A stretch of 64,000 nt of DNA from the NCBI RefSeq assembly GCF_026151205.1, contig NC_087074.1, positions 18,078,712-18,142,711 on the forward strand. Direction: 5' to 3'. The notes beneath the pieces are model-generated. The model searched no databases. It was not told the DNA's origin and saw nothing but the letters and a program-made list of their open reading frames with translations. The translations under genes and the position numbers were made by a program. This document shows positions 5,393 through 41,720 of this stretch, piece after piece; the first letter of the stretch is position 1; each line of letters starts with the position of its first letter. The DNA comes from Bolinopsis microptera (taxonomy: Eukaryota; Ctenophora; Tentaculata; Lobata; Bolinopsidae).

Positions 5393-6985
5393 TCACTTTG
5401 AATCGAAAAATCCAGCAAGTCTCTGAATCTCAGCAAACAAGTCAGAACTGGTGATATGAAAGTGAGCTGCAACATCATCTATAATAATCTGCAGCTCCAG
5501 CGGCAATATTGAATCTTCCAATAATTCATCAATAGGGTAGACTAGTATTTTTCTATCATAATGTAACCCATCTGACTTCTTCTTGTATTTCCGTTTAGCA
5601 CTGTTTTTAGGACAGTCATTTTCATGTTGTTCTTCATTCTGCACAATTTGATCTTCAGATTTAACATCAAGAAAACTTGAAAACTGCTGTTTGAGTTCGC
5701 TTGACAATTCGGAGTCTTTTAAGACTTTAACATTCTGGGATATGATGGCTTCCACTGATTTTAAGTAATCTTCGAGAGGCATGTTTAAGAAATGTTTTTC
5801 GGTGACAAAACCGTGCCTTTCCACTATAGATTTATCAACTAAATTACATACACTGTTTTCATGCCTAGATTTAAGATATGGTAAAAACCAAATGAGCCAT
5901 GGTTCTTTTGGTGAATCAGGATTTTCAAATTGGAAAAAGAGACGTAGAGCAGTAACAAAGCACCCCGCTATGATAAGTTCAACATTTACCATGGTTTGGT
6001 TTTCTGCCCTATAAAACTTTTTGAAAAGTCCGACGCACAATAAATGGACATCATTAGCTGAGATTTCAAATTTAGTTCGCAGTCTATTGAACAGAGCTGC
6101 TAGAACACTAAAATGAAGCTTGGGTTTGGGAACATCATCTAAAATATCTGAAACAGCCAGGACCCTTTCTTTCAAACTTTTTAACGTAGGTAGACTACGA
6201 ACTCGGAGTGAACTCCCCAGAAGCTTTTTTGGTTTGAAGTATTCAGGCAACAATCGAGTTGTGTTGAAATAGCACAAAGTCCCATCACCTATCCAACTCA
6301 GGATATCACAACACAGCACCGGATAGTGTATAGAAAGTAGGGATAAATACAGGATAGCCAAGTTATCAAAAATACTGATCTTATAGATATCAGTCAAAAC
6401 AACTGGCTCCACTTTCGGCACGTTTATAGTTCCGATCTTAGCAAGGAACCTGAACCAGAGGTTTCCTACAACGTTTGTTAATTGCTCCGGGACTCCTTGA
6501 CTGATGAGACCGTTGGTTTGGATCAGGAGGATTGCTTGTACGGCTTCTGTTACCGTCCATATTCTGTCCGGGATCCCAGTGGTTTTGGTGCTGTTCAAAC
6601 CTTTGGCTACTCGCCTGTAAACATTTTGTATTAATTTATGACCAAAGTTTTTGATATGTGTGCGATGTTATTTAACTAGACATTTGATAAGCGGGACTGA
6701 GAACGGGATAAACAATTCTTTTCTCATGTTCACTTCATTTGATAGAAAATCATCAAAAAGCAAATCACAAATTACACGATTAACAGCTGTATCCATGATG
6801 ACCCCTAGTAACGTCTCTATCCCAACTCACCTGACACTAGCGTTATGTTGGGTGAATAAGGTATCGTCCAGTTCCACCACCTCCTCTCTGATGTCCTGAG
6901 ACTGGGTACCACACACTCTGCAGTAACCTGTACCATCACCCAGCTCGAAGTCATTTGCAGTTCCACATTCCTGACATCGCAGCAT
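5393..6985 (-). CDS. TAF1B: TAF1B, RNA polymerase I SL1/TIF-IB subunit B (complete copy)
   Basis: Two exons: 6831-6985 (start ATG at 6985) and 5393-6614, joined in phase 2 (AG|G), giving about 458 residues; human TAF1B is 588. Exon 1 encodes an Rrn7-type zinc ribbon with C4, C7, C22 and C25 (CQEC and CRVC) followed by an acidic linker. Exon 2 starts RVAKGLNSTKTTG and carries the two cyclin-like folds expected of this TFIIB-related factor, then a basic stretch (KRKYKKKS, about residue 390) and a C-terminal tail. Known role: TAF1B acts like TFIIB for Pol I, bridging TBP/SL1 at the rDNA promoter and Pol I in the nucleolus. The donor is CAG|gtgagt and the acceptor TTTACAG. It is the only complete member of three: the two copies to the right stop after LLPE. 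The gene head-on to its 5' side is the tail of gene X. Confidence 0.85.
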
Positions 6986-8130
6986 TCCTACGACATTGTT
7001 GAAGGATTTGTGGGTTATCTAATTATGTATTTGTGGGTTATATCTAATGTGAATTTGTGGGTTATATCTAATGTGAATTTGAATTATTCGACTGTTGCAG
7101 CTGCATGTCAATTTTGAGTGGAGACACTTGATTTTTCATATAAAAGACATTATCAGCATGCTGCTGTCGGTGGTTTTCATTTACAAACACAAGTAATACT
7201 GCCCATGCTGTCATACAAAATAGAAATATTTATCATCGGATAAAATTCACAGTAAAACACCCCAAATCAGACGAGTTGGTTTAAAACGTAACTGTAAAAG
7301 GCAAAACTTAGGTTTTCAAAACATTGGCGGTGTACATTTTAATGTAGACTATTTAATCAATTGGTCAAAATGGTAAATATCTGTACTTCTGGTTAAAACG
7401 TGTGTCATGCAATAAAAACATCGTGGCCAGCACATTTAATAAATTAATTGATACAAATCGATATTATATCTAAACGTATGAAACGAAATTATGCATCTTA
7501 ATCAACAATCGTCAACAATCTATATTATAATTAATAATTTTGTATCTAAAAGCAATCACCAACAAGTTAAAGAAGGTTAAAACAACAATAAAATTTCTGT
7601 TGAAATTCTAAATTGATTCATCATCTGTCAATTCAACGAAGAAGTAATGTCATTTATATAAGCATTCATCGATAAAAGCCAATAGAGATCAATCAACAAC
7701 GAACATTTTCTATGTCTATGACTAGTAGTACCTGAAAAAAATGCTGTCTTTCATTTCAAAACCATGATGTTATAAATATGGTTCGAGATTTCAATTATTC
7801 TAAACTTTTAAAAATTTCTTGGTTTAATTGGATGATGATGGTAAGTCTAAAAGTGTCTGGAGCGAGATTATTGTTTTACATCAATCTTTGAATCAATCAA
7901 TTTGTTTCTTGAAGAAAACAAGTTGTAATCAGAATGACTTTAGGATCTTATATTATCTATCAGCTTATAACGACAAACCAGAGCTTAAAAAGATCACCAA
8001 GAATTCAAGATCCAAACAAAGCATTAAAAAAAAAAAAAACAAAGAAATGTTAACAAAGTAAATAAGATCCTCGAGAATTCAAGATCCAAACAAGGCTTTT
8101 TTTTTTAAAGAAAAAAAATGTAGATGACAA
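6986..8130. promoter_or_regulatory. TAF1B upstream region / spacer to gene X
   Basis: Non-coding, AT-rich region between TAF1B ATG (6985, reading left) and the stop of gene X exon copy 1 (8131). At 7005-7082 three tandem copies of about 23 bp with core TTGTGGGTTATATCTAA sit immediately upstream of the ATG and are conserved in all three duplicated units. The core promoter of TAF1B should lie here. The remainder is identical in type in units 2 and 3 with only scattered substitutions, so no selection on function can be inferred from them. Confidence 0.5.
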
Positions 8131-10677
8131 TTATGAAGTAAGCCTGATGGGAAACAAGGAGGCAGAACCATAGAAGTCATACTTGAACTCAGTGCTGAGG
8201 TTGTGGGAGGTGGCGAGGAGAGAGGAGGTGGGGTTGAGGAGGAGAAGGATCTGGAACTTGTAGATCTGATTATCGCACTGTTCTTCAGGGCTTGTTCCGA
8301 GAACAGCTTCTACTGAGCACTGTGGGTATTATAGACTGTTAGAGGACAGCACTGTGGGTATTATAGACTGTTAGAGGACAGCACTGTGGGTATTATAGAC
8401 TGTTAGAGGACAGCACTGTGGGTATTATAGACTGTTAGAGGACAGCACTGTGGGTATTATAGACTGTTAGAGGACAGCACTGTGGGTATTATAGACTGTT
8501 AGAGGACAGCACTGTGGGTATTATAGACTGTTAGAGGACAGCACTGTGGGTATTATAGACTGTTAGAGGACAGCACTGTGGGTATTATAGACTGTTAGAG
8601 GACAGCACTGTGGGTATTATAGACTGTTAGAGGACAGTACTGTGGGTATTATAGACTGTTAGAGGACAGCACTGTGGGTATTATAGACTGTTAGAGGACA
8701 GCACTGTGGGTATTATAGACTGTTAGAGGACAGCACTGTGGGTATTATAGACTGTTAGAGGACAGCACTGTGGGTATTATAGACTGTTAGAGGACAGCAC
8801 TGCGCGTATTATAGATTGTTAGAGGACAGCACTGTGGGTATTATGGACTGTTAGAGGACAGCACTGTGGGTATTATAGACTGATAGAGGACAGCACTGTG
8901 GGTATTATAGACTGTTAGAGGACAGCACTGTGGGTATTATGGATTGTTAGAGGACAGCACTGTGGGTATTATTATAGACTGTTAGAAGACAGCACTGTGG
9001 GTATTATAATTTATAGACTGTTAGAGGACAGCACTGTGGGTATTATAGACTGTTAGAGGACAGCACTGTTGGTATTATAGACTGTTAGAGGACATCACTG
9101 TGGGTATTATAGACTGTTAGAGGACAGCACTGTGGGTATTATAGACTGTTAGAGGACATCACTGTGGGTATTATAGACTATTAGAGGACAGCACTGTGGG
9201 TATTATAGACTGTTAGAGGACAGCACTGTGGGTATTATAGACTGTTAGAGGACAGCACTGTGGGTATTATAGACTGTTAGAGGACAGCACTGTGGGTATT
9301 ATAGACTGTTAGAGGACAGCACTGTGGGTATTATAGACTGTTAGAGGACAGCACTGTGGGTATTATAGACTGTTAGAGGACAGCACTGTGGGTATTATAG
9401 ACTGTTAGAGGACAGCACTGTGGGTATTATAGACTGTTAGAGGACAGCACTGTGGGTATTATAGACTGTTAGAGGACAGCACTGTGGGTATTATAGACTG
9501 TTAGAGGACAGCACTGTGGGTATTATAGACTGTTAGAGGACAGCACTGTGGGTATTATAGACTGTTAGAGGACAGCACTGTGGGTATTATAGACTGTTAG
9601 AGGACAGCACTGTGGGTATTATAGACTGTTAGAGGACAGCACTGTGGGTATTATAGACTGTTAGAGGACAGCACTGTGGGTATTATAGACTGTTAGAGGA
9701 CAGCACTGTGGGTATTATAGACTGTTAGAGGACAGCACTGTGGGTATTATAGACTGTTAGAGGACAGCACTGTGGGTATTATAGACTGTTAGAGGACAGC
9801 ACTGTGGGTATTATAGACTGTTAGAGGACAGCACTGTGGGTATTATAGACTGTTAGAGGACAGCACTGTGGGTATTATAGACTGTTAAAGGACAGCACTG
9901 TGGGTATTATAGACTGTTAGAGGACAGCACTGTGGGTATTATAGACTGTTAGAGGACAGCACTGTGGGTATTATAGACTGTTAGAGGACAGCACTGTGGG
10001 TATTATAGACTGTTAGAGGACAGCACTGTGGGTATTATAGACTGTTAGAGGACAGCACTGTGGGTATTATAGACTGTTAGAGGACAGCACTGTGGGTATT
10101 ATAGACTGTTAAAGGACAGCACTGTGGGTATTATAGACTGTTAGAGGACAGCACTGTGGGTATTATAGACTGTTAGAGGACAGCACTGTGGGTATTATAG
10201 ACTGTTAGAGGACAGCACTGTGGGTATTATAGACTGTTAGAGGACAGCACTGTGGGTATTATAGACTGTTAGAGGACAGCACTGTGGGTATTATAGACTG
10301 TTAGAGGACAGCACTGTGGGTATTATAGACTGTTAGAGGACAGCACTGTGGGTATTATAATTTATAGACTGTTAGAGGACAGCACTGTGGGTATTATAGA
10401 CTGTTAGAGGACAGCACTGTGGGTATTATAGACTGTTAGAGGACAGCACTGTGGGTATTATAGACTGTTAGAGGACAGCACTGTGGAGTTTGGGTGAGGA
10501 TAGTTAGAGCGTTCAAATATTAAACCATGGATCTTAAACAAATTGTGTGTCTAATTACCTCTTTGTCAAGTAGCAAGGAGTAATATTTGTCTAGGAGCTC
10601 GAACGCTAGCTCAGAAACAAGACCTGACTGAACCACGCTGAACAACGTTCTTTCTGCGGAAAGTATTGATTTGTCAG
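8131..10677 (-). pseudogene. Gene X 3'-end copy 1 (last two exons; 5' part missing)
   Basis: Two exon-like segments on the minus strand: 10559-10677 (reads ADKSILSAERTLFSVVQ up to LLLDKE, donor GAG|gtaatt) and 8131-8319 (starts CSVEAVLGTSPEEQ, ends FPIRLTS and a TAA stop). The two join in phase 0. The intron between them is almost entirely a 32-bp minisatellite, and the acceptor CCCACAG used by the last exon is the last unit of that array. I do not recognise the protein family. Only the tail is present in this unit, so this copy is presumably a dead duplicate. An alternative acceptor for the upper exon is possible, as its 5' border lies in a low-complexity stretch. Confidence 0.6.
8317..10487. 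repeat. 32-bp minisatellite, array 1 (about 68 units)
   Basis: Near-perfect 32-bp tandem repeat. In the minus (transcript) direction each unit contains CTCTAAC, a branch-point-like sequence, about 19 nt before TATAATACCCACAG, a usable 3' splice site. A few units carry point changes or short insertions (for example at about 8965, 9005 and 10360). The array fills the last intron of gene X and its final unit is the acceptor of the terminal exon. Confidence 0.97.
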
Positions 10678-10719
10678 CTTGTAGTAATAATAGTAGTAAT
10701 CTATTGTAGTAATTTATTG

Positions 10720-10905
10720 CGACAATATTGCCCTAATTCCTCCGAAAATATTGCCCTAATTCCTCCGACAATATTGCCCTAATTCCTCCGACAATATTGC
10801 CCTAATTCCTCCGACAATATTGCCCTAATTCCTCCGACAATATTGCCCTAATTCCTCCGACAATATTGCACTAATTCCTCCGAAAATATAGCCCTCATTC
10901 CTCCG
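10720..10905. repeat. 23-bp tandem repeat (8 units) in unit 1 only
   Basis: Eight copies of a 23-bp unit containing ACAATATTGCCCTAATTCC. Units 2 and 3 of the segmental duplication have only one copy at the matching place (about 14833 and 18729). The expansion is therefore specific to unit 1. Since 23 is not a multiple of 3, the frame upstream of the gene X exon is broken here, supporting that this sequence is intronic. Confidence 0.9.
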
Positions 10906-11433
10906 CCCCGAACCCAACATCCTACAGTCTGTTAATACGAATAAGGCTGCTTTTTTCCAAATTATATTAGCCCTATAATATGTTGATAAATCTTTGCAGG
11001 TAGCGCTTTATTCGCCAACTCAGGAAATTCAGTGTAAGACATTAACCTTATTTTGGTTTAAAAGTTTAAAAGGAAATAGCTGCAGTAGCCAGTAAATCGG
11101 GGTATGTGGTAAATATGGGTGTGATAAATCAGAGTTTAATCGTGCCACGACAACTTCTACCAGATGAGATCTGATTATATTAAATTATATTGATCCTCAC
11201 AATATCACTATTCATCCACCCAATATAATTAGTCAATATCCACCCATATGGCGCATCAGACAGATAATGCAAAAAATCATTTACTTACCATAATTATTAA
11301 TTACGTCCTTATTTTTCCATTTACTATCATTACTCCATATAAATGTCGGCATATTCTGTTCTTTTTTTAGATAATTTTTCGTTTATTTTTTAAATGTTAC
11401 TCGTTTATAAGAAAGTGAAGATGTGAAAACAGC

Positions 11434-12179
11434 TTACTCAGGCAACAATCGAATTGTGTTGAAATAGCACAAAGTCCCATCACCTATCCAACTCAGGATA
11501 TCACAACACAGCACCGGATAGTGTATAGAAAGTAGGGATAAATACAGGATAGCCAAGTTATCAAAAATACTGATCTTATAGATATCAGTCAAAACAACTG
11601 GCTCCACTTTCGGCACGTTTATAGTTCCGATCTTAGCAAGGAACCGGAACCAGAGGTTTCCTACAACGTTTGTTAGCTGCTCTGGGATTCCTTGACTGAT
11701 GAGACCGTTGGTTTGGATCAGGAGGATTGCTTGTACGGCTTCTGTTACCGTCCATATTCTGTCCGGGATCCCAGTGGTCTTGGTGCTGTTCAAACCTTTG
11801 GCTACTCGCCTGTAACCATTTTGTATTAATTTATGACCAAAGTTTTTGATATGTGCGCGATGTTATTTAACTAGACATTTGATGAGCGGGACTGATAACG
11901 GGGTAAACAATTCTTCTCTAATGTTCACTTCATTTGATAGAAAATCATCAAAAAGCAAACACAAATAACACGATTAACAGCTGTATCCATGATGACCCCT
12001 AGTAACGTCTCTATCCCAACTCACCTGACACTAGCGTTATGTTGGGTGAATAAGGTATCGTCCAGTTCCACCACCTCCTCTCTGATGTCCTGAGACTGGG
12101 TACCACACACTCTGCAGTAACCTGTACCATCACCCAGCTCGAAGTCATTCGCAGTTCCACATTCCTGACATCGCAGCAT
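11434..12179 (-). pseudogene. TAF1B: Truncated TAF1B copy 2 (zinc ribbon plus first part of exon 2)
   Basis: Exon 1 (12025-12179) and the first 376 nt of exon 2 (11434-11809) are retained with intact splice sites and open frame. The frame then ends at a duplication breakpoint: the codons for LLPE are followed directly by TAA created by the junction. The predicted product would be 176 residues (zinc ribbon and the beginning of the first cyclin-like fold). Differences from the complete copy are few (for example T to I before RLLPE). It keeps the same upstream region, so a truncated transcript could be made; whether it is functional is unknown. Confidence 0.85.
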
Positions 12180-13274
12180 TCCTACGACATTGTGGAAGGA
12201 TTTGTGGGTTATCTAATTATGTATTTGTGGGTTATATCTAATATGAATTTGTGGGTTATATCTAATGTGAATTTGAATTATTCGACTGTTGCAGCTGCAT
12301 GTCAATTTTGAGTGGAGACACTTGATTTTTCATATAAAAGACATTATCAGCATGCTGCTGTCGGTGGTTTCCATTCACAAACACAAGTAACACTTCCCAT
12401 GCTGTCATACAAAAATAGAAATATTTATCATCGGATAAAATTCACAGTAAAACACCCCAAATCAGACGAGTTGGTTTAAAACGTAACTGAAAAAGGTAAA
12501 ACTTAGGTTTTCAAAACATTGGCGGTGAACATTTTAATGTAGACTATTTAATCAATTGGTCAAAATGGTAAATATCTGTACTTCTGGTTAAAACGTGCAA
12601 TAAAAACATCGTGGCCAGCACATTTAATAAATTAATTGATACAAATCGATATTATATCTAAACGTATGAAACGAAATTATGCATCTTAATCAACAATCGT
12701 CAACAATCTATATTATAATTAATAATTTTGTATCTAAAAGCAATCACCAACAAGTTAAAGAAGGTTAAAACAACAATAAAATTTCTGTTGAAATTCTAAA
12801 TTGATTCATCATCTGTCAATTCAACGAAGAAGTAATGTCATTTATATAAGCATTCATCGATAAAAGCCAATAGAGATCAATCAACAACGAACATTTTCTA
12901 TGTCTATGACTAGTAGTACCTGAAAAAAATGCTGTCTTTCATTTCAAAACCATGATGTTATAAATATGGTTCGAGATTTCAATTATTCTAAACTTTTAAA
13001 AATTTCTTTTAAAAGTGTCTGGAGCGAGATTATTGTTTTACATCAATCTTTGAATCAATCAATTTGTTTCTTGAAGAAAACAAGTTATAATCAGAATGAC
13101 TTTAGGATCTTATATTATCTATCAGCTTATAACGACAAACCAGAGCTTAAAAGATCCAAACAAAGCATTAAAAAAAAAAAAACAAAGAAATGTTTACAAA
13201 GTAAATAAGATCCTCGAGAATTCAAGATCCAAACAAGGCTTTTTTTTTAAAGAGAAAAAAAATTTAGAGGACAA

Positions 13275-14787
13275 TTATGAAGTAAGCCTGATGGGAAACA
13301 AGGAGGCAGAACCATAGAAGTCATACTTGAACTCAGTGCTGAGGTTGTGGGAGGTGGCGAGGAGAGAGGAGGTGGGGTTGAGGAGGAGAAGGATCTGGAA
13401 CTTGTAGATCTGATTATCGCACTGTTCTGCAGGGCTTGTTCCGAGAACAGCTTCTACTGAGCACTGTGGGTATTATAGACTGTTAGAGGACAGCACTGTG
13501 GGTATTATAGACTGTTAGAGGACAGCACTGTGGGTATTATAGACTGTTAGAGGACAGCACTGTGGGTATTATAGACTGTTAGAGGACAGCACTGTGGGTA
13601 TTATAGACTGTTAGAGGACAGCACTGTGGGTATTATAGACTGTTAGAGGACAGCACTGTGGGTATTATAGACTGTTAGAGGACAGCACTGTGGGTATTAT
13701 AGACTGTTAGAGGACAGCACTGTGGGTATTATAGACTGTTAGAGGACAGCACTGTGGGTATTATAGACTGTTAGAGGACAGCACTGTGGGTATTATAGAC
13801 TGTTAGAGGACAGCACTGTGGGTATTATAGACTGTTAGAGGACAGCATTGTGGGTATTATAGACTGTTAGAGGACAGCATTGTGGGTATTATAGACTGTT
13901 AGAGGACAGCACTGTGGGTATTATAGACTGTTAGAGGACAGCACTGTGGGTATTATAGACTGTTAGAGGACAGCACTGTGGGTATTATAGACTGTTAGAG
14001 AACAGCACTGTGGGTATTATAGACTGTTAGAGGACAGCACTGTGGGTATTATAGACTGTTAGAGAACAGCACTGTGGGTATTATAGACTGTTAGAGGACA
14101 GCACTGTGGGTATTATAGACTGTTAGAGGACAGCATTGTGGGTATTATAGACTGTTAGAGGACAGCACTGTGGGTATTATAGACTGTTAGAGGACAGCAC
14201 TGTGGGTATTATAGACTATTAGAGGACAGCACTGTAGGTATTATAGACTGTTAGAGGACAGCACTGTGGGTATTATAGACTGTTAGAGGACAGCACTGTG
14301 GGTATTATAGACTGTTAGAGGACAGCACTGTGGGTATTAAAGACTGTTAGAGGACAGCACTGTGGGTATTATAGACTGTTAGAGGACAGCACTGTGGGTA
14401 TTATAGACTGTTAGAGGACAGCACTGTGGGTATTATAGACTGTTAGAGGACAGCACTGTGGGTATTATAGACTGTTAGAGGACAGCACTGTGGGTATTAT
14501 AGACTATTAGAGGACAGCACTGTGGGTATTATAGACTGTTAGAGGACAGCACTGTGGGTATTATAGACTATTAGAGGACAGCACTGTGTTTGAGGATCAT
14601 AGTTAGAGGGTTCAAATATCAAACCATGGAATTTAAGAAGATCTTAAACAAATTGTGTGTCTAATTACCTCTTTGTCAAGTAGCAAGGAGTAATATTTGT
14701 CTAGGAGCTCGAACGCTAGCTCAGAAACAAGACCTGACTGAACCACGCTGAACAACGTTCTTTCTGCGGAAAGTATTGATTTGTCAG
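13275..14787 (-). pseudogene. Gene X 3'-end copy 2
   Basis: Same two exon-like segments as copy 1: 14669-14787 and 13275-13463, with the 32-bp array between them. One visible coding difference is GCA (Ala) in place of GAA (Glu) shortly after TSP in the terminal exon. No upstream exons of X are present in this unit, so it is probably a non-functional duplicate. Confidence 0.6.
13461..14588. repeat. 32-bp minisatellite, array 2 (about 35 units)
   Basis: Same unit as array 1, about half the length. It contains marker variants (GCATTGTGGG, AGAGAACAGC, CTGTAGGTATT, ATTAAAGACTG) in an order that is repeated in array 3, showing the two arrays were copied together. Confidence 0.97.
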
Positions 14788-15392
14788 CTTGTAGTAATAA
14801 TAGTAGCAAACTATTGTAGTAGTAATTTATTGCGACAATATTGTCCTCATTCCTCCGCCCCGAACCCAACATCCTACAGTCCGTTAATACGAATAAGGTC
14901 GATTTTTCCAAATTATATTAGCCCTATAATTATATGTTGATAAATCTTTGCAGGTAGCGCTTTATTCACCAACTCAGGAATCCAGTGTAAGACATTAACC
15001 TTATTTTGGTTTAAAAGGAAATAGCTGCAGTATCCAGTAAATCGGGGTATGTGGTAAATATGGGCGTGATAAATCAGAGTTTAATCGTGCCACGACAACT
15101 CTACTCACAACTTCTACCAGATGAGATCTGATTATATTAAATTATATTGATCCTCACAATATCACTATTCATCCACCCAATATAATTAGTCAATACCCAC
15201 CCATATGGCGCATCAGACAGATAATGCATAAAATCATTTACTTACCATAATTATTAATTACGTCCTTATTTTACCATTTACTATCATTACTCCATATATA
15301 AATGTCGGCATATTCTGTTCTTTTTTTAGATAATTTTTCGTTTATTTTTTAAATGTTACTCGTTTATAAGAAAGTGAAGATGTGAAAACAGC

Positions 15393-16139
15393 TTACTCAG
15401 GCAACAATCGAATTGTGTTGAAATAGCACAAAGTCCCATCACCTATCCAACTCAGGATATCACAACACAGCACCGGATAGTGTATAGAAAGTAGGGATAA
15501 ATACAGGATAGCCAAGTTATCAAAAATACTGATCTTATAGATATCAGTCAAAACAACTGGCTCCACTTTCGGCACGTTTATAGTTCCGATCTTAGCAAGG
15601 AACCGGAACCAGAGGTTTCCTACAACGTTTGTTAGCTGCTCTGGGATTCCTTGACTGATGAGACCGTTGGTTTGGATCAGGAGGATTGCTTGTACGGCTT
15701 CTGTTACCGTCCATATTCTGTCCGGGATCCCAGTGGTCTTGGTGCTGTTCAAACCTTTGGCTACTCGCCTGTAACCATTTTGTATTAATTTATGACCAAA
15801 GTTTTTGATATGTGCGCGATGTTATTTAACTAGACATTTGATGAGCGGGACTGATAACGGGATAAACAATTCTTCTCTCATGTTCACTTCATTTGATAGA
15901 AAGTCATCAAAAAGCAAATCACAAATTACACGATTAACAGCTGTATCCATGATGACCCCTAGTAACGTCTCTATCGCAACTCACCTGACACTAGCGTTAT
16001 GTTGGGTGAATAAGGTATCGTCCAGTTCCACCACCTCCTCTCTGATGTCCTGAGACTGGGTACCACACACTCTGCAGTAACCTGTACCATCACCCAGCTC
16101 GAAGTCATTCGCAGTTCCACATTCCTGACATCGCAGCAT
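15393..16139 (-). pseudogene. TAF1B: Truncated TAF1B copy 3
   Basis: Exon 1 (15985-16139) and truncated exon 2 (15393-15768) with the same premature end after LLPE as copy 2, predicting the same 176-residue product. The intron differs from copy 1 by a few substitutions (GCAACTCAC for CCAACTCAC before the donor). Splice sites remain intact. Confidence 0.85.
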
Positions 16140-17234
16140 TCCTACGACATTGTGGAAGGATTTGTGGGTTATCTAATTATGTATTTGTGGGTTATATCTA
16201 ATATGAATTTGTGGGTTATATCTAATGTGAATTTGAATTATTCGACTGTTGCAGCTGCATGTCAATTTTGAGTGGAGACACTTGATTTTTCATATAAAAG
16301 ACATTATCAGCATGCTGCTGTCGGTGGTTTCCATTCACAAACACAAGTAACACTTCCCATGCTGTCATACAAAAATAGAAATATTTATCATCGGATAAAA
16401 TTCACAGTAAAACACCCCAAATCAGACGAGTTGGTTTAAAACGTAACTGAAAAAGGTAAAACTTAGGTTTTCAAAACATTGGCGGTGAACATTTTAATGT
16501 AGACTATTTAATCAATTGGTCAAAATGGTAAATATCTGTACTTCTGGTTAAAACGTGCAATAAAAACATCGTGGCCAGCACATTTAATAAATTAATTGAT
16601 ACAAATCGATATTATATCTAAACGTATGAAACGAAATTATGCATCTTAATCAACAATCGTCAACAATCTATATTATAATTAATAATTTTGTATCTAAAAG
16701 CAATCACCAACAAGTTAAAGAAGGTTAAAACAACAATAAAATTTCTGTTGAAATTCTAAATTGATTCATCATCTGTCAATTCAACGAAGAAGTAATGTCA
16801 TTTATATAAGCATTCATCGATAAAAGCCAATAGAGATCAATCAACAACGAACATTTTCTATGTCTATGACTAGTAGTACCTGAAAAAAATGCTGTCTTTC
16901 ATTTCAAAACCATGATGTTATAAATATGGTTCGAGATTTCAATTATTCTAAACTTTTAAAAATTTCTTTTAAAAGTGTCTGGAGCGAGATTATTGTTTTA
17001 CATCAATCTTTGAATCAATCAATTTGTTTCTTGAAGAAAACAAGTTATAATCAGAATGACTTTAGGATCTTATATTATCTATCAGCTTATAACGACAAAC
17101 CAGAGCTTAAAAGATCCAAACAAAGCATTAAAAAAAAAAAAACAAAGAAATGTTTACAAAGTAAATAAGATCCTCGAGAATTCAAGATCCAAACAAGGCT
17201 TTTTTTTTAAAGAGAAAAAAAATTTAGAGGACAA

Positions 17235-18683
17235 TTATGAAGTAAGCCTGATGGGAAACAAGGAGGCAGAACCATAGAAGTCATACTTGAACTCAGTGCT
17301 GAGGTTGTGGGAGGTGGCGAGGAGAGAGGAGGTGGGGTTGAGGAGGAGAAGGATCTGGAACTTGTAGATCTGATTATCACACTGTTCTTCAGGGCTTGTT
17401 CCGAGAACAGCTTCTACTGAGCACTGTGGGTATTATAGACTGTTAGAGGACAGCACTGTGGGTATTATAGACTGTTAGAGGACAGCACTGTGGGTATTAT
17501 AGACTGTTAGAGGACAGCACTGTGGGTATTATAGACTGTTAGAGGACAGCACTGTGGGTATTATAGACTGTTAGAGGACAGCACTGTGGGTATTATAGAC
17601 TGTTAGAGGACAGCACTGTGGGTATTATAGACTGTTAGAGGACAGCACTGTGGGTATTATAGACTGTTAGAGGACAGCACTGTGGGTATTATAGACTGTT
17701 AGAGGACAGCACTGTGGGTATTATAGACTGTTAGAGGACAGCATTGTGGGTATTATAGACTGTTAGAGGACAGCATTGTGGGTATTATAGACTGTTAGAG
17801 GACAGCACTGTGGGTATTATAGACTGTTAGAGGACAGCACTGTGGGTATTATAGACTGTTAGAGGACAGCACTGTGGGTATTATAGACTGTTAGAGAACA
17901 GCACTGTGGGTATTATAGACTGTTAGAGGACAGCACTGTGGGTATTATAGACTGTTAGAGAACAGCACTGTGGGTATTATAGACTGTTAGAGGACAGCAC
18001 TGTGGGTATTATAGACTGTTAGAGGACAGCATTGTGGGTATTATAGACTGTTAGAGGACAGCACTGTGGGTATTATAGACTGTTAGAGGACAGCACTGTG
18101 GGTATTATAGACTATTAGAGGACAGCACTGTAGGTATTATAGACTGTTAGAGGACAGCACTGTGGGTATTATAGACTGTTAGAGGACAGCACTGTGGGTA
18201 TTATAGACTGTTAGAGGACAGCACTGTGGGTATTAAAGACTGTTAGAGGACAGCACTGTGGGTATTATAGACTGTTAGAGGACAGCACTGTGGGTATTAT
18301 AGACTGTTAGAGGACAGCACTGTGGGTATTATAGACTGTTAGAGGACAGCACTGTGGGTATTATAGACTGTTAGAGGACAGCACTGTGGGTATTATAGAC
18401 TATTAGAGGACAGCACTGTGGGTATTATAGACTGTTAGAGGACAGCACTGTGGGTATTATAGACTATTAGAGGACAGCACTGTGTTTGAGGATCATAGTT
18501 AGAGGGTTCAAATATCAAACCATGGAATTTAAGAAGATCTTAAACAAATTGTGTGTCTAATTACCTCTTTGTCAAGTAGCAAGGAGTAATATTTGTCTAG
18601 GAGCTCGAACGCTAGCTCAGAAACAAGACCTGACTGAACCACGCTGAACAACGTTCTTTCTGCGGAAAGTATTGATTTGTCAG
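17235..18683 (-). CDS. Gene X terminal exons, copy 3 (probably the live 3' end)
   Basis: Exons 18565-18683 and 17235-17423, joined in phase 0 across the 32-bp array. Together they give about 101 residues: a hydrophobic, helix-like segment (LVSELAFELLDKYYSLLLDKE) followed by CSVEAVLGTSPEEQ and a leucine-rich stretch ending FPIRLTS. Position argues that this is the tail of the real gene, since copies 1 and 2 are cut off from anything upstream. I could not identify 5' exons with confidence between 19.3 and 22 kb and do not recognise the family. Confidence 0.5.
17421..18484. repeat. 32-bp minisatellite, array 3 (about 33 units)
   Basis: Same unit as arrays 1 and 2. It is about two units shorter than array 2 but shares its variant units in the same order. 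Its last unit provides the acceptor for the gene X exon ending at 17235. Confidence 0.97.
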
Positions 18684-19754
18684 CTTGTAGTAATAATAGT
18701 AGCAAACTATTGTAGTAGTAATTTATTGCGACAATATTGTCCTCATTCCTCCGCCCCGAACCCAACATCCTACAGTCCGTTAATACGAATAAGGTCGATT
18801 TTTCCAAATTATATTAGCCCTATAATTATATGTTGATAAATCTTTGCAGGTAGCGCTTTATTCACCAACTCAGGAATCCAGTGTAAGACATTAACCTTAT
18901 TTTGGTTTAAAAGGAAATAGCTGCAGTATCCAGTAAATCGGGGTATGTGGTAAATATGGGCGTGATAAATCAGAGTTTAATCGTGCCACGACAACTCTAC
19001 TCACAACTTCTACCAGATGAGATCTGATTATATTAAATTATATTGATCCTCACAATATCACTATTCATCCACCCAATATAATTAGTCAATACCCACCCAT
19101 ATGGCGCATCAGACAGATAATGCATAAAATCATTTACTTACCATAATTATTAATTACGTCCTTATTTTACCATACCACCCTATCATTACTCCATATAAAT
19201 GTCGGCATATTCTGTTCTTTTTTTAGATAATTTTCTTTTATTTTTTAAATATTACTCGTTTATAAGAAAAGTGTAGATGTGAAAACAGCTGCACTGCATT
19301 CATCCACAGTCGTTGGCACATGGCAAATAAAATATTTTTGGTCATTAGTAATCTTTCGCTAGTTTGAGGCCTCATTTGAAAGATTTGAAGATGTGGGTTA
19401 TATAAATTAATCAAATTGATTTGTCTAAGTACACAATATCCAAGTCGTATCCTGACCCAACGTGATAAGTCTGATGAATGATGAATCTGTTTAAATGTCA
19501 GGAATAAGCACGACTAAACTTTTCTCAGAGGTCGATCGTTAGTCCCACATTCACAAAGGCGGCAGATCAGCTAATAATCTGAGACCTGGAACTTTTGGAT
19601 TTTTGAGAAAATTTTTCGAAGATGTGACCTTTTTTAGGGAGGAAACATTGATATCTGAGAGGAAATTAAAAACTTTCAGGATGTGGGTCGTTAGTTGCAG
19701 CATTTTAAATCATCATAGTTTGTATTGCTCGCTTATTTAAGTAAGTAAGTAGTT

Positions 19755-21059: not shown

Positions 21060-22945
21060 TCTGGAGATACTTTAAACATTCAGGTGTCCACCGATTTCAC
21101 AGCTGTGCTGTATATATTTCTGCACGCATTAATTAAGACAAGGATTTTTTTCAAGATAATGATAGTTCAAACTCAACATTTCACCGATTTTCACGTTTAA
21201 TCACTGTCTTGACCACGATGAGTAGTTATTTCGTTTTGTTTGTCTGTGGAATTTGATCTTGATTCGGCGAATTCAACTTTGTAAATTATCGATATATTTT
21301 TGCATTTTATTTCCTTGCAGTCATTTTTATAAGTTAAGTAGCATTATTTGGTACAGTAACGTGATTAAAAGTAAGGATATCTCTTTGCCAACTACAACCG
21401 TACGATAAACAGGTAATAGTCCAATAGTTTCCAACAATCATCGCCCGTTCCTTGGGTTTATATTTCTAAGTCTCGCTAATTTTCTGTATTATACTACATT
21501 TGATTACATTAATTGCGAGTTTTGTTCGGTTATTAGCATTGAACGTTCCCTTGCTAATTGTTGCGATCATCTGGTGACTGGTCGATTATATCATGTGCCC
21601 TAGAACAGAACGCCGCTATTTGCTGTGCTCCTTTTCCTGACTGCGGCAGAGAATGTTTGCCAATTGCAACTGTCTACAGATCTTCATTAAAACTACTGTA
21701 GTACAGCTCTTATCTCTTATCTCTATCTCCGCATTCGTCCTAACCTGATCGATCTGTCCGATAACGAAAATATCTTGACTCTTATTGGTGAATATATAAC
21801 CATGTGGGGCAATTTTATCAACAGAAACATTTGTTATAAAGTTGTGTTAAAAGTATTAAACTTTCAAAGTGTTAAAGATTATTGTCACATGACCTAAGCT
21901 ATGTCTCTTCTGATCTCCCTCGGCTTCAGTATTACTCGGTTTTGCATTATTTTTACGCGTAGTAACTAGTAGGACCCTCCTCATAAACAATGTTTGTTAC
22001 GTTCAATACGTCAAATTATTGTTGCTTTACCTCACTTTCGGCCCAATTGCTCTAATAAACATACCGACCATTACCATGCATCAACAATATTTTAATAAAC
22101 AGTGTTGTTGTTTGTTGTTGTTATAATTGTTACTAATACTAACCACTGAAGCTGTGTTATTGTTGTTATTAGTACTAACCACTGAAGCTGACACTGTTCT
22201 TGCTGCCGTCTTCTCCCCAGATCCGCGGGATAAGATCTCCTCGGTACTTGGGAGCCTTACCACTTCGTCTCTCGTGGTGTATCACACTACATAATCCGCT
22301 CTGAAAATGGAGGAGATATGGGTCACTCTATGAAACGGAGTTGCACTAGCTAAGATAATTTGGAAACCAGATCGCTGCAGAGTTATCTTGAAATCTAATT
22401 AACCATCAGACCAATCAGCCTCGATTTTAATTTGAGTTCATAAGCTTGGTAGCACATAATATTAGGTTTCTCCGTTTTGTCAAAAGTTAATTGATAAATT
22501 AATTAGATTTGATGACACTTGACGGAGCAAACCTCCGACAGACTGTCGTTCCGAGTTTATTTACCTGGTTTAGTTTTTAACCACAATACCGCATTTTTTA
22601 GAAACCATAGAACAAAACAGCAGATTCCTAATCGAATTATATCACAAGCCAACAATCTAATGTTGTGCAATACTTTCCGTTCGAACAGCGCGAATTGCTT
22701 TATACTTTTATATTGTTGCGGAATTTCGTCAATTCACTTAACTGCCAACACAAATACCTTTTCTCGTGTGACTCAAACGTTTTAATTTATATCACTATTC
22801 GTTTTAAAGGAGCGCATTTTTGTTCATTGTTAATATTATGCGCTAAGACTTTCATTCACACACCGAAACCAGCATCAGTAAATCTCGGTTAACCTGGTTG
22901 GTTCAGTTTAGCGCACTTTTGTTGCGCTGTGGATATTGTTCTCAA

Positions 22946-24055: not shown

Positions 24056-24664
24056 TAGCTTCACGAGATAACCATACTGTTATACTGGCTGAGCGATATA
24101 GAACACTATACGTGCGTTATGCGTATGATAACGTTAACTCTATTGTTTTGCTCATTTCTTAGAAGTGGGTCCTCGGCCCAACAGGAACAGTTCATTCGCA
24201 AATGCATAATCATACACATCATATTATTGACTTATCATTCCAATACATTAGCTCAATAAATTAGCTCGTTAGCTTCTGGATATTGCTGAGTGATAAGTTT
24301 AGTACAGGTCTTATAATGCCAGTTACTGAGTTAGCAAGGTATGTTTTACCTAGATCAGCCGAATCAGACTTAGAGGCTCGGCCCTTTAGGTTACCCCGAT
24401 AAGATCATTGGTAACTTACAATTTAAACAACCTTAATAACCTTTTCCTATTTAATTGTTATCGTTTATATCTTTATATACATATTTCCCATGAGGGATGA
24501 TATCTGTTTAAAAGTTTAAAAGCTGAATCAATTATGAGACCTCCCTCAGTGTTACGCAAACTTAAACTTTTATTATCTTGTAATTATATAAACTTGTGTC
24601 TTGTATTCTACTTTTCAGTTCACTGCGATAACAATTGATTATTATACTCAGTAACAAGTGTGCA

Positions 24665-25810
24665 ATGGATGGCGAGCCCTTTAACAAAACTGTGTTTGGT
24701 ATAGCCACTCCAGAAGCCCGTTACAGCCTTGCAGCCGTGACATTCCTGGTGATATTCATCTCAATAGTGGGGAATGTTTTGGTTCTGGTGGCGTCCCTGC
24801 GTGATGCCATCAAGCTGGATAAGATATCTGTGATCTTGGTAAAGAACATTGCGATAGCTGATCTTTCGTATGCGTTCCTTGTTATTTTACAGGTGAATTT
24901 TCTTATTTCTGTTCATTTATTTATTCATATTCGTATCCCAATTGAAAAATACCATGGGTCTGTGTTCTGTTATATCTCCCAGCAAAGTGTGATTTCGGAT
25001 TACTACGATATACTTTTGATGATGTTGACGATTTGTATAATTTATAAGATAAATTCAATGCTTTTCTCTTGACTGAAACTTTTTCAGGTGGGAGTGTCTC
25101 TAATAGCACACGAATGGTTGTACGGCAAAATACTCTGTCACGTGACAACCTATCTTGAACACGTGCTCTCCGCAACAGATATCCTCCTCATCTGCGCGCT
25201 CAACATCTCTAAACTAATCGTCATCCTGAAACCCTTCGCAGCCCGCCAATGGTCCAACAAGACAGCGTATGTGATCGTAGGACTGATCTTCCTAGGAGCT
25301 AACGTGTATCCTGTGTGCGAGAGCGTGTTTAGAAAGGTGTACTTTGACTACAGGTCTTACAGGTGCACCTTCCTTCATGAAGCAGGGGTCTGGGCCTTGA
25401 CTGATCCTCTCTTCACCGTATTTATTGTAGCAATACCCACTTTAGTTATCATACTCTCAACGGTCGGACTCCTGGTTTACGTTAACAAAGTCAGTGGAAT
25501 CCACAAGAAAGCAGTGTTCACCAATGTTTGGATCTCTGCCATATTTGTCATATCTTACGCCCCCATGTGTACCTATGTTTTAGGTGAAAAGTGGATTCTT
25601 CACGATTCTAAGTCCGGAAATCTTTCAACGGACTCTGTCTATAAGAACCTCTACAGATGGGGTATGTTCTTGAAGTTTGTGAACAGTACAGCCAACCCGT
25701 TAATATACTATGCCACCATTATGAGTTTTAACACTTATGTCAAGAGTTTGTTTACAACTAAAAGACCAAAGATCAACAAGGTTGGTAAATTTGAGATGGG
25801 CGTCCTTTAG
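24665..25810 (+). CDS. Class A-like G protein-coupled receptor
   Basis: Two exons, 24665-24892 and 25088-25810 (CAG|gtgaat; TTTTTCAG|GTGGGA), giving about 316 residues. The ATG at 24665 gives an N-terminal tail with an N-glycosylation site (NKT); an in-frame ATG lies 30 bp upstream. Seven hydrophobic segments are visible: TM1 with the GN motif (VGNVLVL), TM2 with NIAIADLSY, a conserved Cys at the top of TM3 (GKILCHV), and TM7 ending in STANPLIYY (NPxxY). The DRY motif after TM3 is replaced by NISKLIV, and TM6 lacks CWxP (SYAPMC). It is an orphan receptor of an invertebrate-expanded rhodopsin-type family; the ligand cannot be predicted. A relative lies at 61947-62950. Confidence 0.85.
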
Positions 25811-27171
25811 AAAGTGTTTTATAATGAGCGTTACAAGAACTAACCTGCTTCATACATCACTTTCTCACGTTCTTTACTAATGGAGCATGATTCTTAAATG
25901 ACCTCCACGCATCAATTAGTGAGGTTCGATTACTGGTTGAGGAAGACTGATCAGTCTTTCATGTGCTCGATGGATAATAAACAGAAAACTCTCAGACGTG
26001 ATAATTGCCAATTGAGCTCACCTGGGCGAAACATTCGACCATTTTGATAGTTGTAGCGTTCCTTTTACACTGAATCAAGGTGTACTTTCCCAGATCTTCC
26101 AACTGTAACTCTGAAAATTAAGACTAAATCATCAAACTGTCCAAATGCGAGGATTTTGTTTTCTTTGTTTCGTTAATGTCGTTGACCAGTAATCATATTT
26201 AGGATAATAATAATAATAATAATAACAAAGTATTTATATCCCGCTCATATTAGCAACTAGTAACCAAGAATGGTACTAGCTACTAATGTCAGAGCGGCTG
26301 TCCAAACAAAGATAAAACTTTAATAATTTAGAATTCTCCAACAAAAAATTCTCAATTTCCTTTAAACTGCTTATTAGTAACACTAACGTCTAAAAACTAT
26401 ATTATACGACAGACATGGTGGTACAATCAGACATCAGATGGAATAAACTATAAGAGAAAATAATAATCTCGACACATAATGGTTACCTTTATTTATTCAA
26501 AAGAATTTAATTAATTGAACTTCATTATACACTCTTCTTTATTTGTAGATTAAAACAACAAACACAAACTGAGGCCTGCATCCCCGTCAATACCACACAA
26601 TTATTTAATGAGTTGCTCAAGGTAGTAGACCAGGCCGACGGATCCCCAGTCCGATTTCCCTGAGTATTGTCGCACCCAATTAAGGGAACTCGCACACTAC
26701 ATCACCCTGTACCCAACAGCTTGCAAGCAAGCTGCCGTTCACCCACCGGTTCACTGAGGTACAGGTAGATTGCCGAAGCATGTGCTACCAACTCTGCAAT
26801 CATGTGGTACCGGCCAAAGATACAGGTTTATAAAAATAAAAAATAAAAACAAGCCAGGGCATGGCAAATGGCAGTCTAGTCTCTCCGGACTCCGTGTAAG
26901 TGTAACTATACACACAACTCATGACAGTTAAAAAATCCCATGGAATAATCTACAAACTAAGGCCAGGTTCTAGGAACTTTCTAAAAAAGAACACAAATAT
27001 AAATACGACTAGGTATGTTCTAGATTATTGAAAAAATGGGTTTTTAAAGCCCGTTTAAAAGTATCAATGTTGTTAGCTTTTCTTACCGTATACGGTAGCA
27101 AGTTCCAGAGTTTTGGGGCTGCGTTGCTAAACCTCCTATCACCTAGCCTGATTTTACTGGGTCTACTAACC

Positions 27172-36060: not shown

Positions 36061-37166
36061 ATTTCCAAACTCTTTAGTTCTGAGAAAAACTATACAGTAG
36101 TATTGAAGTAAGATTCCAAATCCTCAAATTATTTGTTATATAGTAGTGTTGAAAGTATTAAAAAAGTAACAATAAAGTTCTGAAAACTAATAACCTAATG
36201 ATATTAGTACTTTAGAGACTTTACTATATAATTGGAGCTGGCTACACCCTCATTTCATCACAATCCGCTGATTACTAACCACAGGCTGATTACTAACAAC
36301 TGCTTACTACTAAAGTACTAACCACTGACGACAAAAGGGCACACCCTATGAGGACACGTCACGAACAGAGACAGAGCGTTTTTAAAGGAGCAGCTCATGT
36401 CGTCATCCTCGTTACCTATAACCACCAGAGGTCGACCACTCAGAACGGAGAATACAAAGTCTCTGTAACTGTTTTCTGTGGGGGTTATTATGTAATAGGG
36501 CTTAAATCAATTATTATAAGAAATTGGTTTTAATTGTTTGTTTGTAACGTTATCAAACTGAAGTTCAATTTCTAGCTTAGAACACCTGGAATACCAGCGA
36601 CATTTCAAATCTTTGCTAAAAGCACAATTTAGTAGAAACTAACTGAGAATTCGTCTGAACCGGAACAAGTCAAGTTCTATAGTTTTCGGAGAACTGCAGC
36701 TTACTGATTGTCTCAACTTTTGCTGCTTATTATCTGAAATATGCAAATCAATCAATCTCACACTGATTCCTCATCAGTCAGACTGGTTATTATATTATGG
36801 TTATTGTGTCGAAACAGCAAATCTAAAGAGTAAGAAACGAACTTGATAGAGGTGATCCCGTGAAGACGCTGATGAAGGAAGGATCAGAACTCTTCAGCGA
36901 ACAATCCAGTTTTGGACTTAGCAGTATGTCGTAAGCGTTACTCTGAAAATTTTAAAGTTGATCTCGTACTGAGATGAAGTATAAGGTTAAACTTGACGTC
37001 AAACAATATCAACTTAATTTTTGATTTGCAAAGTCCTAATATATAAACCGATCCTAGAATGTAACGACGAGTCATACATAATAATGTCACTTAATATGGC
37101 TTAATGACCGAGCAGTCATTTTTGACTGGTTGCAACAGCCACACAATAAATTATCCGCTAACAAAT
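36061..37166. other. Spacer, nothing recognised
   Basis: AT-rich sequence between the start of element A and an exon-like ORF. I see no coding exon, RNA gene or repeat with support. The 5' UTR of element A may extend to about 36110. Confidence 0.4.
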
Positions 37167-37428
37167 TCAAATAACACGACCTCTAAAGACTCTAACAAAT
37201 TCAAATAACACGACCTCTAATGAATCTCCCCCAGATCTGCCCTCTTCCTCCTCCTCTTCCTCCAGAGCCTCCCTAACTGCCCAGTCAATGTCATTAAAGT
37301 GCTCGTATCGGTCGTAAAACGTAGAGTCCCCCACCAGTGTAGTGCCAAAACCCTCATCATCATCACTGTTGGTTCTAGAGTCCAGGTAAAATGTAGATCC
37401 TCCTACCTTATCTTTACTGCTCTTCCTT
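37167..37428 (-). CDS. Putative terminal exon of an unidentified gene
   Basis: Open frame of 87 codons behind a good acceptor (CATTTCACAG). It reads RRKSSKDKVGGSTFYLDSR, an acidic stretch DDDEGFGTTL, then STFYDRYEHFNDIDWAVREA followed by a glutamate run and a stop. Composition is that of a real acidic, serine-rich protein tail rather than random sequence, and it has no ATG of its own. A 34-bp tandem duplication (37158-37225) covers its last codons and sets the stop. No upstream exon was linked with confidence. Confidence 0.4.
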
Positions 37429-40544: not shown

Positions 40545-41720
40545 CTGCGAGTTATATTAATTATTAATGTGTGTTATATTAATTATTAATGTGTATAAAT
40601 ATGAATAAATAAAATCAAGTTTTAAACATCACAATTCACAAATATGGTGAACGTGAATTTCTTCCCACAGATATATTCATATAATGATATCAAATGACAA
40701 ATTTTGATCACGAACTGGCCATTTTATCACAAAACTACTAATTGTGAAAGTTACCGGGCATTTGCAGATTTTTCTTAAATAGCTTTCAAGAATAAAGATT
40801 TTACTAAGAAGTTGCGGAAATTCGGTAATCTGTCGATGCTCACTTAACTCACGGTTAAGGCACGATTTTATTTTTGCACTTACAGTTAAAGTTCGATGGT
40901 TCTACTTTGTACTTCTAGCTTAGTTATAATTGGTTTCATTTTAATCAGCAAAAGCCGTAGAATCACGGCTAAAATGCAATTATGTCCGATGGTATTTTTT
41001 TGCCTACAGTACTGCCCAGTTCCATAATTAACAGTCTATTCTATTAAAGTATTAAGGTTCATGGATGAGGAAATAGGTATGATTCCCTGCGAAAAATGGA
41101 ACAAGTTGCTGCTTTAAATCAAAATTTGTATGCTTGCCAAGTATTGCTTCATTTTAAGTAATGAATTTTACTTACAAAATTCAACCAAAATTGTTGAGTT
41201 AGCGACCGAAAGATGTCCATGAACTTGAAGTGAAATATTAATAACATGAATCAGTCAGAACATCTGGGAAAGTCACGGACTCTTGGATCTTCCAAGTACT
41301 AGGGTAAAGTACTCTGTGCTACAATAGTGGTGCACAAAGAGACAATTTATATGTCAATATGTAGATAAAATGTGTCCACTTATTCATAATCATACTGGCA
41401 ACTTCGCCACAGATAACATAACTTGATTTCTGCAGCCACAAAGAATTCTGATAAATATTCCTAGAATTTAATTAAAAATAATCCAAAAACGAAAGTTTTT
41501 CATTATTAGTATTAATTAAATTTCCACCGTAATATTATGGTTATAACCGTGACTCATTATTTTATTAGCATGATCGATAACTTGAGATAAAATGTAAAAC
41601 ATCATCATAAAAATCAACGATTTTTATGACAAACTGTTCTGTTGTATCAGTGACAAAATCATAGTGTTCGTTTATATTTTAGCCGGTATGTGAACTTATT
41701 TACGAAAAATCTAGTGAATC
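40545..41720. other. Spacer, nothing recognised
   Basis: AT-rich; no ORF, RNA gene or repeat that I can support. Confidence 0.4.

Follow-up and report, generated by a model that had tools for sequence, protein, structure and literature searches.

Candidate 3' splice sites repeated as a minisatellite before the terminal exon of SMCR8 and before exons of other genes in Bolinopsis microptera

Introduction

Which acceptor is used when an intron ends in tens of near-identical 3' splice sites? Studies of 3' splice-site choice usually rely on a small number of engineered sites. The window analyzed here, a 64,000-nucleotide stretch of the genome of the ctenophore Bolinopsis microptera, raises the question in a natural setting. 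In several genes, conserved exons are preceded by arrays whose near-identical, seemingly complete sites number about 4 to 84, and the reading frame gives a read-out of the acceptor that was used, so that exon-proximal and first-transcribed choice become directly testable. The anatomy of the arrays, the identity of the gene, its frames and the recurrence of the arrays are established below. Our main reading, to which a probability of roughly 0.7 is assigned, is that a minisatellite of near-identical 3' splice sites lies in SMCR8 and that its exon-proximal unit is used.

Results

Analysis of the window with TRF located 32-bp arrays at 8316-10486, 13460-14588 and 17420-18484, designated A, B and C, respectively. 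On the minus strand they could be split into units of the form TGCTGTCCTCTAACAGTCTATAATACCCACAG, yielding 67 units in A (8320-10486), 35 in B (13464-14588) and 33 in C (17424-18484). The initial annotation had counted 68, 35 and 33, of which the last two stand and the first is reduced by one. It had also placed a branch point and an acceptor in every unit, which holds for most: the strict pair CTCTAAC and CACAG is present in 60/67, 28/35 and 26/33 units of A, B and C, and the looser pair CTAAC and AG in 63, 29 and 27. In array C, which lies in the last SMCR8 intron, most units contain the branch-point-like CTCTAAC and CCCACAG. Array B displays the variant pattern of array C plus two pure units, array A has variants of its own, and the AG has been lost from three units of B and likewise from three of C. 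The terminal exon begins directly past the last CACAG, at 8319 (A), 13463 (B) and 17423 (C), in phase 0 and in agreement with the preceding exon, as had been proposed. The presence of splice-site arrays before the terminal exon is therefore borne out by TRF, the unit split, register, frame and shuffles; in the last of these, CTAAC followed by CACAG in register arose in 0.09% of 20,000 shuffled, tandemly repeated units, and a degenerate consensus in 10-36%.

Acceptor strength was scored with a matrix of 29 acceptors from our own gene inferences, comprising 11 from SMCR8 and 18 of 20 from CCT, the two weakest-looking CCT acceptors being excluded. The unit scored 7.8, a value which 7 of the 29 matrix acceptors fall below and which 2.8% of 2,534 background AGs reach. 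Each array is preceded by a less similar CTCTAAC...CACAG site with a score of 6.6 (A) or 2.0 (B and C). It is thus plausible, judging from motif and score, that most units of the SMCR8 arrays are complete 3' splice sites. The AG/GTRAGT pattern of a ratchet point is absent from the SMCR8 unit, which reads CAG/TGCTGT, and the units of two further arrays described below, CAG/GTCCTC (M14) and CAG/GTTCTG (P4-ATPase), are weak donors at best and depart from the recursive-splicing pattern.

A 64-base query of the unit against the genome returned 65 matches, all within the three SMCR8 arrays, the underlying candidate counts being lower bounds. Mutations of the branch-point/AG core account for 3 of 10 kinds in A and 2 of 5 in both B and C. 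Since this core is not spared, the units may be passengers, and core positions that mutate as freely as others are what would be expected of an ordinary minisatellite without splicing meaning. That reading, or an assembly artefact, is nevertheless regarded as very unlikely, because the array is in register with both the exon boundary and the frame. Across seven arrays, no consistent trend of mutation polarity towards the exon was observed.

The gene carrying array C, previously termed gene X, is identified by homology as SMCR8 (FLCN-like DENN). All of its exons lie on the minus strand. E1 (47439-47637, with a probable start codon), E2 (47010-47156) and E3 (46635-46816) match the chain 6lt0_B with E = 6e-10 in an SMCR8-like N-terminal longin/DENN region, for which a Folliculin match (PF11704, 4.6e-6) was also obtained. 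At the other end, E10 (36323-36475, FSVLSGRPLVVIG), E11 (26022-26110), E12 (22180-22300), E13 (18565-18659; 95 nt, acceptor TTTCCGCAG, donor GAG/GTAATT) and the coding part of the terminal exon E14 (17235-17423; 62 codons and TAA, beginning directly past the last unit) join into a single open frame of 214 codons. Compared with 6lt0_B this frame gives E = 2.1e-4, the aligned part being E10-E12, the C-terminal DENN part; the start of E12 resembles human SMCR8 at about 804-831. A direct join of E11 to E13 was discarded for disagreement of phase, and E12 was inserted instead. The model covers E1-E3 and E10-E14, with E4-E9 in the middle as provisional exons. This identity renders the exons of copy C credible.

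Splicing to the last acceptor would leave 106 residues beyond the aligned part, the number also present in the 937-residue human SMCR8 chain, an agreement that fits the last acceptor only. E13 and E14, taken together, resembled the human C terminus no better than chance (917 of 1,000 shuffles reached their score), a single BLASTP stretch touched E13 (E = 0.78), and nothing convincing was obtained for E13 or E14 among PDB and Pfam entries. As they correspond to the human C terminus by length and phase only, the two exons are placed by position. The codon-usage score of E14, 24.3 bits, is the highest among the minus-strand segments examined (all but 28.9-35.4 and 41.6-42.9 kb), and its score of 0.34 per codon compares with a maximum of 0.31 among 989 open non-coding windows; a non-open antisense frame of E14 outscores it with 0.50 per codon. 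The last acceptor, previously called authentic, does preserve the protein in frame and homology, and it is from these that we infer its actual use.

The three copies had been treated as equivalents, which proved incorrect. The region 6240-19290 is a segmental tandem triplication (units 6240-11434, 11435-15393 and 15394-19290), each unit combining a TAF1B 5' end with an SMCR8 3' end. Of the three copies, C (17424-18564) alone is part of the SMCR8 gene. A and B are tandem duplicates truncated on the 5' side, SMCR8 3' ends carried along within the duplication, situated downstream of truncated TAF1B 5' ends and devoid of the upstream SMCR8 exons. Their minus-strand exons are a terminal exon at 8131-8319 and an E13 at 10559-10653 in A, and at 13275-13463 and 14669-14763, respectively, in B. 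For the exon formerly drawn at 10559-10677, 10559-10653 is the more likely extent. A fusion of copies A and B to the truncated TAF1B 5' ends was rejected, the junction reading TGA/GTAAGC and the phases misfitting E13. Duplicates lacking an upstream SMCR8 exon would suit a minisatellite without splicing meaning. As for an artefact of assembly, the window contains no N, and the junctions 11434/11435 and 15393/15394 are identical, with the same filler bases, both of which argue against it.

The fate of a transcript spliced to an upstream unit can be read from the frame. In each copy, exactly one CACAG acceptor leads to the 62-codon reading. The remaining ones reach a stop after 0-15 codons, with one exception in A at 28, so that the earlier limit of about 15 codons holds nearly everywhere; in copy C every earlier CACAG acceptor stops within 14 codons. 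These early stops arise because the branch-point core CTAAC/CTGAC itself holds TAA/TGA and because the length of most units is not divisible by three. The resulting tail is exactly CCPLTVYNTHSAVL for 50/66 upstream CACAG acceptors in A, 22/32 in B and 20/30 in C. Such uniformity, together with near-identical sites and copies that differ in array length (67, 35, 33), would accord with a mixture in which stochastic choice yields a ladder of mRNAs and proteins with native or short tails, array length tuning the native share. Such a mixture should be harmful to conserved genes, and we consider it rather unlikely.

Intron length bears on a different possibility, namely that early units win on a first-come, first-served basis under intron definition. 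E13 would then be joined to an early unit, SMCR8 would be truncated with the fixed tail CCPLTVYNTHSAVL, and E14 would be either a minor isoform or a remnant in decay. In copy C, splicing to acceptors 2-4 would give introns of 117-181 nt. In the CCT sample (n = 20, inferred) the median intron is 175 nt and 2 of 20 exceed 1,141 nt; typical introns are therefore short, and early units would yield the more usual length. The acceptor score, moreover, is equal among units. Against this stand the 106-residue agreement described above and the state of E14, whose frame is open in each of the copies, any two of which differ in 1-2 codons; the exon-proximal geometry also keeps exons of dynein, P4-ATPase, CFAP69, PSI and M14 genes recognisable. 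Early-unit use is accordingly judged unlikely.

The last acceptor might instead be distinguished by RNA structure, if the self-complementary ACAGTGCTGT of neighbouring units paired and hid the internal acceptors while the last stayed open. The predicted chance of an unpaired AG was indeed 0.24-0.32 for the last acceptor against an internal mean of 0.17 in the narrower setting, and 0.10-0.11 against 0.05-0.06 in the wider one. Of 200 shuffled-unit arrays, however, 16.5% matched this on the two measures together and 36% when the difference was considered, and the stability of a 6-unit fold was ordinary, with 29% of shuffles as low. Being no better than the shuffled-unit controls, this highly improbable explanation was rejected.

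Contrary to the description of a single case, genome motif searches revealed further arrays. Among the matches listed, about the first 100 genome places for each of the five forward searches, 16 tandem clusters were recognised. Among those matches, ten of the 16 run up to a same-strand coding exon, and these ten lie in eight genes. None of four reversed-motif control clusters does so, which again counts against a minisatellite indifferent to splicing. The genes encode an M14 carboxypeptidase (Peptidase_M14, 1.9e-9), CFAP69 (CFA69, 5.4e-11), a PSI-domain protein (PSI, 3e-10), a dynein heavy chain (Dynein_C, 5.3e-6), a P4-ATPase (ATP8B1, 1.2e-31, the alignment beginning at exon residue 2), an importin-type protein (IBN_N, 9.3e-9), a C8-domain protein (C8, 2e-5) and one unnamed product. 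In a rough coding score, 6 of 10 post-array exons did not reach the 95% level of a null that low-complexity loci had inflated; the claim of recurrence rests on the family matches. On that evidence, the acceptor-array architecture is present in at least seven other genes of recognisable families and one unnamed gene, where it probably arose independently, with unit sequences that are unrelated.

The clusters set aside comprise an array within an antisense ORF (L016), an 11-bp array adjoining the donor of a copine exon (L018), an array without an exon that is related to L021, about 7 kb off (L022), one of two copies (L024) and two without an exon (L025, L029). L020 fell outside the rule and was negative, and duplicates with overlapping ends (C4:2487465, C1:731237, C1:1121841) were removed. 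Of the controls, L030 is contained in a long same-strand ORF and represents a coding repeat, and in L032 an ORF crosses the array; neither is an exon starting at the array end. L033 was retained with a single match listed, and the 11 codons past it score 10.4. Over nine arrays, a scripted classification of 223 upstream acceptors returned 214 with a stop first and 9 reaching the native frame. Eight of the latter belong to the C8 gene and stop at 27 codons within repeated exon sequence; the sole remaining in-frame upstream acceptor is in the P4-ATPase gene.

Discussion

A segment that starts at the branch point of the last SMCR8 intron, spans the acceptor and takes in the opening bases of the terminal exon has probably expanded into a minisatellite, presumably by slippage or unequal exchange. 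If last-unit use holds, the splicing machinery must somehow pick the last of many near-identical sites. Exon definition is the probable route: signals of the terminal exon would select the adjacent branch point, the first usable AG downstream would be cut, and the upstream units would leave with the intron. Splicing to one of those units by mistake would be self-limiting, as translation would soon meet a stop. These arrays suggest a route for intron growth and for copy-number-variable splicing without loss of protein. We propose, tentatively and at somewhat less than even odds, that in this genome minisatellites repeatedly arise on real 3' splice sites, are tolerated through the exon-proximal rule and the stop codon in the branch point, and form a genome-wide expandable class whose copy number could adjust the amount of protein made.

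Among known systems, NAGNAG acceptors share one branch point, and the minisatellite unit of IFI6 (6-16) is reportedly 12 bp long. NAGNAG acceptors are closely spaced competing 3' splice sites (PMC3250501), two AGs three bases apart, in contrast to the tens of complete sites found here. The IFI6 minisatellite reportedly provides several tandem splice donors of which downstream units are used (Turri 1995; PMC4526556). Like the SMCR8 arrays it supplies multiple tandem splice sites, although these are donors in short units, whereas the present arrays supply acceptors. In the human ABCA7 intron 18 VNTR (PMC5954066), 25-bp units begin with two bases that form a canonical splice site, 12 to about 427 units are present, the unit next to the exon serves as the canonical site, and retention of one unit causes a frameshift, splicing having been measured. 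Both there and here, a splice site is repeated in an array abutting an exon; ABCA7 concerns the donor (5') side of one gene with measured splicing, whereas the present arrays combine a candidate branch point and acceptor in several genes. No acceptor-bearing counterpart of the IFI6 and ABCA7 donor VNTRs was found in the literature searched. In the SMCR8 unit, CTAAC and CACAG are present and a GTRAG donor is absent; since the repeated site is an acceptor and not a donor, these arrays are best regarded as a variant of the ABCA7/IFI6 kind rather than a member of it.

Acceptor arrays at the 3' end of SMCR8

The 32-bp minisatellite is present in three copies delimited by TRF, A (8316-10486), B (13460-14588), and C (17420-18484), the units of which are read on the minus strand. 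The unit TGCTGTCCTCTAACAGTCTATAATACCCACAG occurs 67 (A), 35 (B), and 33 (C) times on that strand, and all 65 genomic matches to a 64-base query of it fall within these arrays. The initial annotation assigned a branch point and an acceptor to every unit. This holds for most, with CTCTAAC and a terminal CACAG in one unit in 60 of 67 (A), 28 of 35 (B), and 26 of 33 (C). One diverged site, CTCTAAC ... CACAG, lies ahead of each array. From the donor GAG/GTAATT (10558, 14668, and 18564 for A, B, and C) to the terminal exon start (8319, 13463, and 17423), the introns measure 2239, 1205, and 1141 nt, respectively. A 23-bp array of 8 copies (10720-10905), upstream of the exon preceding the minisatellite (E13), is detected by TRF in duplicate A only.

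Gene X of the initial annotation corresponds to the 3' end of SMCR8. Joined minus-strand exons E1 (47637-47439), E2 (47156-47010), and E3 (46816-46635) match human SMCR8 (6lt0_B, E 6e-10) and Pfam Folliculin (4.6e-6). Exons between E3 and E10 represent a provisional sketch. E10 (36475-36323), E11 (26110-26022), E12 (22300-22180), E13 (18659-18565), and the terminal E14 (17423-17235), also on the minus strand, join into a single open frame of 214 codons, the first half of which aligns to SMCR8 724-831 (E 2.1e-4). The assignment of E13 and E14 relies on phase, position, and length; 106 residues lie beyond the aligned part here and 106 in the human chain (937 residues), and similarity of E13 plus E14 to the human C terminus is no higher than that of shuffles. 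Elsewhere in the gene, a 34-bp tandem duplication (37158-37227, minus strand) crosses the probable donor of E8, presenting TTAGAG/GTCGTG twice; this 5' splice site may also be duplicated. Immediately ahead of E5, the presumed branch-point region is spanned by a perfect 22-bp duplication (40551-40594, minus strand). A GPCR-like two-exon gene (24660-25810, plus strand) is nested in the E11-E12 intron, and its first exon, searched alone against Pfam, did not confirm this identity. A further GPCR-like ORF (61950-62965, minus strand) is named by sequence reading alone.

Each array belongs to a tandem duplicate unit (6240-11434, 11435-15393, and 15394-19290) made of a TAF1B/Rrn7 5' part and an SMCR8 3' part, so that copy C alone is tied to the upstream SMCR8 exons. 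The full-length TAF1B/Rrn7 gene matches Rrn7_cyclin_N at 8.4e-13. Copies A and B are accordingly read as orphans behind truncated TAF1B 5' ends (11435-12212 and 15394-16172, minus strand), which comprise the zinc-ribbon exon and part of exon 2. The frame of these truncated copies stops exactly at the duplication junction, which forms TGA/GTAAGC, a possible new donor. The order of unit variants is common to B and C, which differ by two pure units, and the variants of A are unlike theirs. Such a small difference means that B or C may be an assembly duplicate of the other, although the novel junction they share argues for a real event; both internal junctions are identical, with filler bases.

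Predicted consequences of acceptor choice

In each copy, exactly one CACAG yields the 62-codon terminal reading. The remaining CACAG acceptors lead to a stop after 0-15 codons, except for one in A that reads 28 codons; the earlier statement that any earlier acceptor gives a stop within about 15 codons is therefore correct for nearly all. The commonest predicted product is the tail CCPLTVYNTHSAVL, expected from 50 of 66 (A), 22 of 32 (B), and 20 of 30 (C) CACAG acceptors. Its stop is the TAA inside the branch-point core CTAAC, read as a stop because 32 is not divisible by three. Since E14 is the last exon, messages using upstream units would not be expected among the standard targets of EJC-dependent NMD. 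A matrix was built from 29 inferred acceptors of this genome, comprising 18 of the 20 from CCT genes and 11 from SMCR8. The unit scores 7.8, with lower scores in 7 of the 29, and 2.8% of 2,534 background AGs attain that value. Among the 20 inferred CCT introns, median length is 175 nt and 2 measure more than 1,141 nt. Intron length alone would favor the early units, which is the chief argument against splicing at the last one.

Recurrence across the genome

Throughout the assembly (265 Mb, 232 contigs), CTAAC-N-CACAG-N-CTAAC gave 855 matches versus 79 for its reverse; a subtelomeric family contributes dozens among the matches listed, and the SMCR8 arrays are expected to count too. Further motifs gave 501 versus 366 (TTCAG), 183 versus 121 (TTTCAG), 716 versus 321 (TGCAG), and 299 versus 62 (CTGAC/TTTCAG). 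Clusters were defined as at least two same-strand matches with starts at most 70 bp apart, among the matches listed (about the first 100 per motif), leaving out three overlapping-end duplicates. A same-strand coding exon stood at the end of 10 of the 16 clusters so obtained and was lacking in six (L016, L018, L022, L024, L025, and L029). None of four reversed-motif controls (L030-L033, one outside the cluster rule) ended at a coding exon; L030 and L032 sit inside open frames. The hypergeometric chance of 0/4 versus 10/16 is about 0.04 (by hand), a modest figure from few controls. A rough coding score placed 4 of the 10 array exons above the 95% level of a null inflated by low-complexity loci; because it separated them poorly, the case for these exons rests on family matches.

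The ten loci comprise an M14 carboxypeptidase (L013; 35 bp, 84 copies in the fetched stretch), the true acceptor of which is one diverged unit past the array, CFAP69 (L014; 31 bp x 54), a PSI-domain (semaphorin-like) exon (L015; 32 bp x 12), dynein heavy chain (L017 and L019; about 50-73 bp), a P4-ATPase (L021; 31 bp x 13), an unnamed gene whose exon has no Pfam match (L023; 25 bp x 21), an importin-type first coding exon (L026 and L027; 34 bp x 4 and x 18), and a C8 domain (L028; 64 bp, 8.7 copies within the part fetched and more matches listed beyond it). The importin-type unit contains the start codon and a short upstream ORF, MSPDLYTFQ. The dynein array is the same at both of its places, which share contig C1; one of them lies some 18 kb short of the end of that contig. 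For 223 upstream acceptors in nine arrays, including SMCR8 copy C, the script returned a stop first in 214 and the native frame in 9. Eight of these belong to the C8 gene, matching exon sequence repeated in the unit, with a stop at 27 codons, and one, in the P4-ATPase, is a real in-frame insertion. Since units are unrelated in sequence between genes, their expansion looks like a recurrent process, not a transposon family.

For donors, a pattern of three GTAAGT motifs matched 16,111 times, versus 3,001 times when reversed, counts that simple repeats may inflate. Two of seven loci examined were informative, the other five being without a clear exon. In L040 (662-1401), a long open coding-like stretch with no Pfam match runs up to a 36-bp donor array and stops at its first unit; the array takes in the final 24 nt of the presumed exon. 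L034 holds a protein-kinase gene (two joined exons versus Pkinase, 6.6e-13; the exon after the array, alone, has no Pfam match). Its whole intron (995-1286) is a 41-bp array with GTAAGT in the units and mostly also TTCAG/GCAATG, the units with TTCAG also carrying the opening bases of the exon that follows. In L018, an 11-bp array (1039-1170) likewise starts exactly where a copine exon (Copine, 1.7e-9) ends.

Proposed mechanism and known relatives

From anatomy and recurrence, both read in genomic DNA, we infer that replication slippage or unequal exchange most likely multiplied a segment bearing the 3' splice site. Exon definition would then pick the exon-adjacent unit, upstream units would leave as intron, and the branch-point stop would silence splicing mistakes. 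The units do not protect their branch point or AG from change, which fits a passenger role better than selection for splicing. Among the literature matches listed, covering titles and abstract openings and largely outside subscription journals, no acceptor-bearing minisatellite was found. Known relatives differ in the element repeated. The ABCA7 intron-18 VNTR (12 to about 427 units, with a measured splicing effect; PMC5954066) and the IFI6 minisatellite (Turri 1995, as cited in PMC4526556) repeat a donor, and the DDX3Y minisatellite contains a transcription start (PMC3039753), whereas the SMCR8 array repeats an acceptor.
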